This document shows positions 35,456 through 37,067 of a DNA stretch of 37,067 nucleotides, in pieces (the stretch's first letter is position 1; each line of letters opens with the position of its first letter). Made by a program: the position numbers and the translations under genes. A model generated the notes under the pieces. That model worked only from the letters and a program-made list of their open reading frames with translations, made no database searches and was not told the origin of the DNA. The stretch is from Candidatus Avichristensenella intestinipullorum (GTDB lineage: Bacteria > Bacillota > Clostridia > Christensenellales > Aristaeellaceae): contig DVFI01000062.1 in assembly GCA_018713305.1 (NCBI GenBank), positions 1 through 37,067 of the forward strand, in the 5' to 3' direction.

Positions 35456-35629
35456 GTGTCTGAAGTCCGGATTAGGGAAAACGAATCCCTGGAAAGCGCT
35501 CTGAGAAGGTTCAAGCGCCAGTGCGCGCGCGCTGGTGTTCTGGCGGAAGTGAGAAAACGCGAGCATTATGAGAAGCCCAGCGTCAAGCGCAAGAAGAAGG
35601 CGGAAGCTGCCCGCAAGCGCAAGTACTGA
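35456..35629 (+). CDS. rpsU: Small ribosomal subunit protein bS21
   Basis: A 57 aa ribosomal protein located near the anti-Shine-Dalgarno end of 16S rRNA. It reads [18 protein letters not shown] at the N-terminus, then [20 protein letters not shown] and a Lys/Arg-rich tail ending RKRKY, an unmistakable S21. It starts at GTG 35456 with GGGAGGG 7 nt upstream. It occupies the usual Firmicutes position after mtaB and a HIT gene. Confidence 0.97.
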
Positions 35630-35668
35630 GCCGATTTTCCGCAATGGCGGTATTCTCTGAGGCAAGCG

Positions 35669-36107
35669 GCGCCCGGCCATGAGGCCGGGCGCTAAGACCG
35701 TCGACAAGGTTTTGTCGACGGTCTTTCGCTGCAAGGCTGTTTCTCAGCCTTGCAGCGAAGGGGACATCATGTTCCTGTGCGCAAAGCGCACGGCCGGAAC
35801 ATGATAGCGGAAGCGGCTTGCAGCCGCTCCAGCTTGTCGGAAATGGCCGGCGCAGCCGGCCTTTTCCGACAAGCTGAGCGCCCGGCCATGAGGCCGGGCA
35901 CTGTTTTTTGCCCTTCGGCGATGGGATGCAGAGGCCGCAACGGCGCGGCTGCGCCAGGCCGGAGGAAAGCGCCCGGTTTTCCGCCTGTCAAATGCCTTTT
36001 GCAAGGCATTCCGGGGAAAAACAGCGTCGACCGGCCGACGGGACGGCCTGCGCAGCAAATGCCGCCTGCGCTCCCGCGGCCGTGTCTCCCGCATACGCAT
36101 GCGGGAG
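35669..36107. repeat. Dense array of perfect inverted repeats
   Basis: No credible gene lies in 35630-36162. Hairpins follow one another with gaps of only a few bases: 35669-35692 (10 bp stem, ATGA loop); 35694-35725 (14 bp, AAGACCGTCGACAA arm); 35725-35759 (15 bp); 35766-35805 (10 + 6 bp); 35812-35828 (7 bp); 35831-35875 (13 + 7 bp); 35878-35899 (second copy of the first stem); 35991-36010 (8 bp); 36025-36040 (5 bp); 36086-36107 (9 bp). The arm sequences differ from one hairpin to the next, except that the GCCCGGCC-ATGA-GGCCGGGC unit occurs twice, 209 bp apart. The first hairpins may also terminate rpsU. Confidence 0.85.
35878..35909 (+). terminator. Terminator-like hairpin in the inverted-repeat array
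   Basis: GCCCGGCC-ATGA-GGCCGGGC followed by ACTG and TTTTTT (35904-35909). This is the only stem of the array with a clear T-run on the plus strand and is the best candidate for final termination of rpsU transcription. Confidence 0.55.
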
Positions 36108-36162
36108 GGGACGAATCGCCGTCCGCCCTCTCCCGCGCGGTGTCCCGCAGGAATGCGCCGCC

Positions 36163-37067
36163 TCAGGGCTGCGACGGGCCGTCCTTGATGAACAGCACGT
36201 CTTTCTTGGCCAGGCTGACAGTCAGCGTCTGGCCGATATCGCGATGACGCGTTCCCTCGTTGACAAACTCCACATCAACGGATATGCCGTTTCCTTCCAG
36301 CGTATAGCGCATGATGCTGCCAATCATGGAAAAGCGCGTAATCCTGCCGGTGACGCTGTATCCGTCCGCAACCGGCGCCACGGAGAACACCTCCGGCCGG
36401 ATGGCGACCACGTCGCACGCCGGCGCAGGAATGCCCAGCAGCTGCGCCGCCTGCGCGGGGGACAGGACGTTATAGTGTCCGATGAACTGCGCCACGAAGG
36501 TGGTTTTCGGCTGGGTATAAATGTCCTCGGGCGCGCCTTCCTGCTCAATGATGCCGTTATGCATGACGCAGATGCGGTCCGAGATGGCCATGGCCTCTTC
36601 CTGGTCATGCGTGACGAAGATGGCGGTAATGTGCATGCTTTGCTGAATTTCGCGAATCTGGATGCGCAGGTTCTGGCGAATCTGGGCATCCAGCGCGGAA
36701 AGCGGCTCGTCCAGCAGCAGGACCTTCGGTTCCATAATCAGGGCGCGCGCAAGCGCGACGCGCTGCTGCTGGCCGCCGGAGAGCTGGCTGGGACGGTGGC
36801 GCTCCTTGCCCTCCAGGCCCACCAGCGCTATCATCTTTTTCACCTTCTCGCGGATGACGTCCTTGGGTTGCTTCTGGATGGTCAGGCCAAAGGCGATGTT
36901 CTGCGCGGCCGTCATGTTCGGGAAGAGCGCGTAGCTCTGAAAGACCATGCCGACCTGGCGATGGCGCGCGTCAATGGCCGTGACATCCTTGCCGTCGATG
37001 AAGACGCTGCCGCTGTCAATAACGTTCAGGCCTGCAATCGCGCGCAGCAGCGTGGACTTGCCGCAGC
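36163..37067 (-). CDS. ABC transporter ATPase, PotA/UgpC-like (N-terminus outside window)
   Basis: ATP-hydrolysing subunit of an ABC importer; 301 codons are visible and the start lies beyond the right edge. The window edge cuts the Walker A loop, leaving [13 protein letters not shown]. Next come the Q loop ([12 protein letters not shown]), the signature [15 protein letters not shown], Walker [12 protein letters not shown] and the switch His in [14 protein letters not shown] regulatory domain (about the last 85 residues, from [10 protein letters not shown]) follows. The TOBE domain and the sequence style point to the spermidine/iron/glycerol-phosphate or sugar importer class. The substrate cannot be told without the neighbouring permeases. 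Confidence 0.93.

Follow-up and report, generated by a model that had tools for sequence, protein, structure and literature searches.

In choosing a target, IS1272 and TnSha1, two members of the IS1182 family from staphylococci, go by hairpin structure rather than by sequence; many of the chosen hairpins are terminators, and the stem-loop is lost in part or in whole, leaving no duplication (PMC4923244, PMC5678879). Bacterial miniature inverted-repeat transposable elements (MITEs) such as BOX, RUP, and SPRITE are short, noncoding, mosaic, and intergenic and insert into one another, and REP/BIME repeats with their RAYT are dispersed palindromes behind genes. The array of hairpins described here resembles all of these systems. 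We conclude that it is very probably a member of a MITE family that targets terminators and is moved in trans by a DDE transposase of the IS1182 family, with the element's own hairpins serving as further landing sites.

RESULTS

The window, which is the whole stretch of 37,067 nucleotides that was analyzed, comes from Candidatus Avichristensenella intestinipullorum. Seven hairpins stand back to back at 35669-35909, between rpsU (ribosomal protein S21; 35456-35629, plus strand, assigned from its open reading frame and rpsU relatives) and a convergent ABC-transporter ATPase gene (36163-37067, minus strand). On the plus strand, the array begins with a copy of the hairpin of the struck rpsU terminator (35668-35693, with the hairpin proper at 35669-35692), recognized as a target duplication by its direct-repeat match to a right copy at 35877-35902. 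The T-run of the original terminator (35904-35909) is now found behind the right copy only. The two copies enclose a noncoding miniature element of 183 bp (35694-35876), defined by its paralogues and its ends, AAGACCGTCGACAA and TTCCGACAAGCTG, and composed of modules A-B-C-D-F. Module A (35694-35725) is a terminal inverted repeat in the form of a hairpin, module B (35725-35759) is a 15-bp hairpin, module C (35762-35805, its hairpin at 35766-35805) is bulged, ATCATGTTCC/GGAACATGAT, with a conserved TGT...ACGGCC, and module D (35809-35830) is the hairpin GGAAGCGGCTTGCAGCCGCTCC. Module F (35830-35876) is a near-perfect 47-nt palindrome with a CTG end; its 22-nt arms, 95% complementary, form the longest stem of the array, exceeding the 15 bp given as the maximum in the initial annotation.

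The 251-nt hairpin stretch folds with −184 kcal/mol, compared with −105 ± 5 kcal/mol in shuffles (z = −15.8), and its opposite strand reaches a z of −16.8. The hairpins at 35669-35909 are far beyond chance, and the earlier description of the first 240 bp as nearly all stem is correct. The same description had extended the hairpins over about 440 bp, which was not confirmed for 35910-36107: the folding of 35910-36110 has a z of −2.0, with 6 of 200 shuffles folding equally well, and a genome search with the interval found no relatives of 35910-36107 elsewhere in the same genome. On these grounds we dropped this part from the element; the sole clear hairpin there, at 36086-36107, falls within the 3′ region of the ABC-transporter gene on the opposite strand.

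Searching the genome (2.35 Mb in 151 contigs) with the interval revealed 39 strong copies besides the window, with 86 to 99% identity falling within query positions 3 to 203 (35671-35871). The whole array is a dispersed repeat, contrary to the initial annotation, which had suggested such a search and had argued that arms unrelated to one another exclude an ordinary repeat family; the arms are indeed unrelated inside the locus, but this is no case against a family. The 14-base end motif has 108 matches with at most one mismatch in this genome, including the inner arm of hairpin A and hence not an element count, versus 3 for the reversed control. Placed side by side, the copies are modular, with A, B, C, and D followed by one of several right parts (E, F, or G). 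Across copies, module A reads CAGACCGTCGACAA-loop-TTGTCGACGGTCTTT, and module B is a CGCTGCAAGGCTG hairpin with a variable loop. The longest two-ended copies measure about 330 to 345 bp, and the longest copies carry terminal inverted repeats because their end, TTCGACGGTCTG, is the reverse complement of their start. The family has the hallmarks of a MITE, as there is no transposase gene, the length is well below 1 kb (183 bp in the window), and it occurs at 40 places.

About 30 contig ends stop inside elements or IS1182-type ends, often 128 to 131 nt in (for example, C1, C21, C28, C38, C78, C80, C86, C101, C102, C103, C109, and C134 of G000). The stops at 128 to 131 nt look like a k-mer limit, and the repeats account for much of the fragmentation of this assembly.

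Modules C and D form a conserved core. Across 12 copies from 8 genomes and 5 genera, 95.4% of their pairs are kept and 9 of 24 pairs differ in both partners, as in none of 500 shuffles; slid controls were 36 to 47% paired. The alignment is small and its structure was drawn up manually after the window copy, which biases the pair count towards that copy. A covariance model located the core in 54 of 308 genomes and 9 of 50 genera of the bacterial family, as well as in a small number of genomes from other families in the order; with 16 to 17 candidates scored per genome, core copy numbers are minima. In module B, the stem sequence is replaced wholesale between genera while pairing is retained. 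The kept and covarying pairs and the wide occurrence of the core are what one would expect of a conserved structured RNA behind rpsU, riboswitch-like or a small RNA, that became multicopy by chance and for which mobility is secondary. We consider this improbable. Rfam gave nothing at the gathering threshold over the elements, neither a structured RNA nor a group II intron, and only subthreshold chance matches. There is no fixed gene partner, as copies lie behind unrelated genes; the insertions are at terminators and have duplicated flanks; and the outright replacement of module B stems does not fit such an RNA. The covariation analysis in relatives, which the initial annotation had called for, supports its idea of a structured noncoding RNA to the extent that one internal hairpin covaries across genera, but not as a free-standing RNA. 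Locus L124 in G071 carries a gene for 6S RNA (Rfam RF00013, 65.9 bits) at 1897-2081, about 280 bp from an element copy.

CAGACCGTCGACAA, the end sequence of the elements, is the terminal inverted repeat of insertion sequences of the IS1182 family; such insertion sequences occur complete in a related genus and, in the genome of the window, cut off at 13 contig ends. The relative G095, which has diverged element copies, contains, next to a hairpin, a 1.55-kb element with the ends CAGACCGTCAACAA and TTGTCGACGGTCTG, and the open reading frame inside this element matches the NCBIfam IS1182 transposase model with 420 bits (cutoff, 270). In the genome of the window, 8 contig ends break 24 to 157 nt inside one insertion sequence end (CAGACCGCCGACAAAGGGG... 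/ CAGACCGCCGACAAAGGGGCTG...), and 5 break inside the other (CAGACCGTTGACAAAACC... / CAGACCGTTGACAAAACCAAGTCAACGGTCTTTTTTTCATAAGG...). The latter is a terminal inverted repeat hairpin of the module A design, a design that the IS1182-type element of this genome shows at one of its ends (CAGACCGTTGACAAAACCAAGTCAACGGTCTTTTTTT). One contig end holds 32 codons that are 69% identical to the C-terminus of the G095 transposase, at the matching distance from the end. The assembly of this genome has no intact transposase gene and no match to PF13751; the putative partner was traced through contig ends only, and from these we infer the source of the transposase. The 13 contig ends presumably represent several IS1182 copies that the assembler failed to resolve.

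The 14-nt ends of the copies in this genome match the IS1182 element L208 at 13 to 14 of 14 positions. In the window copy, the left end, AAGACCGTCGACAA, is of the CAG type with the first base altered and agrees with L208 at 13 of 14 positions, and the right end, TTCCGACAAGCTG, has the CTG and corresponds to another IS1182-type end, CAGCTTGTC. These two ends are unlike, of the CAGACC type on the left and the CAGCTT type on the right; this copy may have arisen from two elements joined into a composite, or its original right end may be lost. Repeats of the REP/BIME type, for which a RAYT (Y1) transposase provides mobility, would likewise be dispersed, palindromic, intergenic, and mosaic. However, the inverted repeats at the ends belong to a DDE insertion sequence, the target duplications comprise whole hairpins, and the genome has no match to the Y1 transposase (PF01797) while the controls were detected, which makes this origin very unlikely unless a RAYT gene falls into a gap of the assembly.

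The hairpin GCGCCCGGCCATGAGGCCGGGC is present on both sides of the window element, with TTTTTT after the right copy. The terminator copies form a 25-nt direct repeat with one mismatch (left copy versus 35878-35902), and among 20 right flanks the best match to the left flank of the window was its own, with 22 exact nucleotides (score, 22; others, at most 10). L143, L158, and L161 have a duplicated flanking hairpin as in the window, and L147 has a less perfect one. Flank pairs in this genome are more alike than permuted pairs (permutation P of about 0.001); the duplication is recognizable in only about 5 of 20 testable copies, the rest being truncated or rearranged. Hairpins adjoin 55 of the 79 distinct element ends in this genome, against 3.1% in the control (a score of at least 6, reaching the boundary, in the outer 40 bases of each end; 381 control positions further out). 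The flanking hairpins vary by site, save where they are element modules. By a rough frame test using GC3, 28 of 37 copies have a flanking gene directed towards them and follow its stop codon at a median distance of 54.5 nt.

MITEs in other genera have perfect flank repeats of 24 nt (L291), 22 nt (L303), and 32 nt (L309), and L119, from another genus, has one of about 27 nt with one difference; 843 kb of unrelated control contigs contained no such repeat of at least 22 nt at that spacing. The target duplication of the MITEs is of the same kind as that of the autonomous IS1182 elements. IS1182 copies in four genera are inserted between perfect whole-palindrome repeats of 25, 25, 21, and 22 bp (AAACCACCCGTCAAACGGGTGGTTT in G254, AAAAGGTGGGTTTTACCCACCTTTT in G301, AAACTGCCCAAGGGCAGTAAC in G023, and AGCCTTGCATTTTTGCAAGGCT in G133); such repeats were not found at most other transposase loci, many of which are fragments or are cut off by a contig end. 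Among ten IS1182 elements from named plasmids, with transposases about 42 to 45% identical, eight have perfect palindromic repeats of 16 to 28 bp directly at their CAG...CTG ends, and a ninth, from Salmonella, has the same stem with an inverted loop. In this ninth element (L322; plasmid CP053580.1), the hairpins at 811-831 and 2419-2439 have the reverse-complementary loops TCT and AGA. It looks as though one of the two hairpins had been flipped, which may bear on a cruciform step. The tenth (L323; Providencia plasmid NZ_CP120531.1) has no palindromic flanking repeat and may have inserted in another way or have decayed since.

None of the relatives whose rpsU region was read has such an array, and most show one terminator-like hairpin. 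In the sister species G046, the core model had no match and the rpsU terminator differs in sequence, so that an empty site with an identical terminator was not found. In G006, from another genus, rpsU (locus L202) has its own terminator, and behind it comes a row of other hairpins (TTTCCTGCTCAGTC..., CGCAGGGGGGTC...), which may have inserted independently at the rpsU terminator. A chain of terminators selected by the host to insulate rpsU from the convergent ABC-transporter gene could account for the terminator-like outer hairpins; IS1182 ends also begin with terminator-like hairpins. We hold this explanation, offered by the initial annotation, to be highly implausible, because the array is missing at the relatives' rpsU, the six-T run follows the right terminator copy only, and the same array occurs behind many unrelated genes. 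It holds true only insofar as both outer hairpins are copies of the rpsU terminator, produced by its duplication.

The hairpins of the element serve as later targets, because 11 of the 13 IS1182-type ends adjoin module F (AAGGCCGGC-loop-GCCGGCCTT) or the module G hairpin CCTTGCGCAGCAAGG. The arrays of unrelated hairpins and the module mosaic therefore result from hairpins acting as further targets, and the window copy with its CAGACC-type left and CAGCTT-type right ends is probably a nested composite. Long palindromes at contig breaks are typical artifact sites and many contigs end here, but we give next to no credence to an assembly artifact or to template switching during replication, the latter proposed in the initial annotation, as the same modules recur in various arrangements at dozens of sites unrelated to one another, with ends shared with IS1182, and in other genera from other assemblies.

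DISCUSSION

The interpretation as a terminator-targeting MITE builds on features read directly from the DNA, namely, the repeat family, its ends, the type of target, the duplication of whole hairpins, the IS1182 elements with the same ends, and the nesting. From these we infer that an IS1182 transposase moves the MITE, that the chemistry would take place at a cruciform, and that termination would be preserved. The initial annotation had considered a decayed mobile palindromic element; mobile and palindromic it appears to be, but the large family and the putative IS1182-type partner speak against a mere relic.

We hypothesize that the transposase recognizes a palindrome, here the rho-independent rpsU terminator, by its hairpin or cruciform shape and that the element ends are joined at the two feet of the stem-loop. 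Gap repair would then leave the element flanked by a complete hairpin at either end. The T-run would stay with the right copy, and the host gene would keep its terminator; insertion may thus be nearly harmless because the right copy with the T-run would keep rpsU terminated. Each hairpin of the element would be a new landing site, so that insertions nest and arrays of unrelated hairpins grow. A MITE family living in terminators, whose insertion leaves one terminator copy intact, would explain the puzzling intergenic hairpin arrays of this bacterial family. The findings also open the structure-guided choice of targets by a DDE transposase to testing.

More tentatively, the C-D core might be a functional nucleic acid structure that the element needs, as RNA or single-stranded DNA, and the MITEs might act as landing pads that draw later insertions off genes, each hairpin inviting the next. 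If functional, the core could, for instance, allow the transposase or a host factor to dock, or it could act as an RNA protecting the transcript of the host.

How does this family compare with known systems? Other bacterial MITEs, including BOX, RUP, and SPRITE, use other transposase families (PMC10969869), and the text of this review does not mention IS1182. REP/BIME repeats differ in that the genome of the window has no RAYT and its elements have DDE-type inverted repeats. Literature on dispersed clostridial hairpin repeats yielded nothing matching, and a literature search, with most subscription journals outside its coverage, found no description of the MITE family, the covarying core, or the nesting, which appear to be new. 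Palindrome targeting by IS1182 members is already in the literature, and the class as such is known. The closest relatives are the IS1182-family insertion sequences (transposase model NF033551; PF05598 plus PF13751), with which the family shares CAG... terminal inverted repeats, palindromic targets, and whole-hairpin repeats of 16 to 28 bp, the latter seen in IS1182 of relatives and named plasmids; in contrast to these, the window element is 183 bp long, has no transposase, and would have to be moved in trans. IS1272-type replacement of the stem-loop is not what we found, as the stem-loop is present on both sides of the elements. Here the stem-loop is doubled whole, which corresponds to pathway b in Fig. 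13 of the 2017 IS1272 paper (PMC5678879). That paper only drew stem-loop duplication as a possibility, and the IS1182 copies in four related genera and on nine named plasmids provide natural evidence for this outcome.
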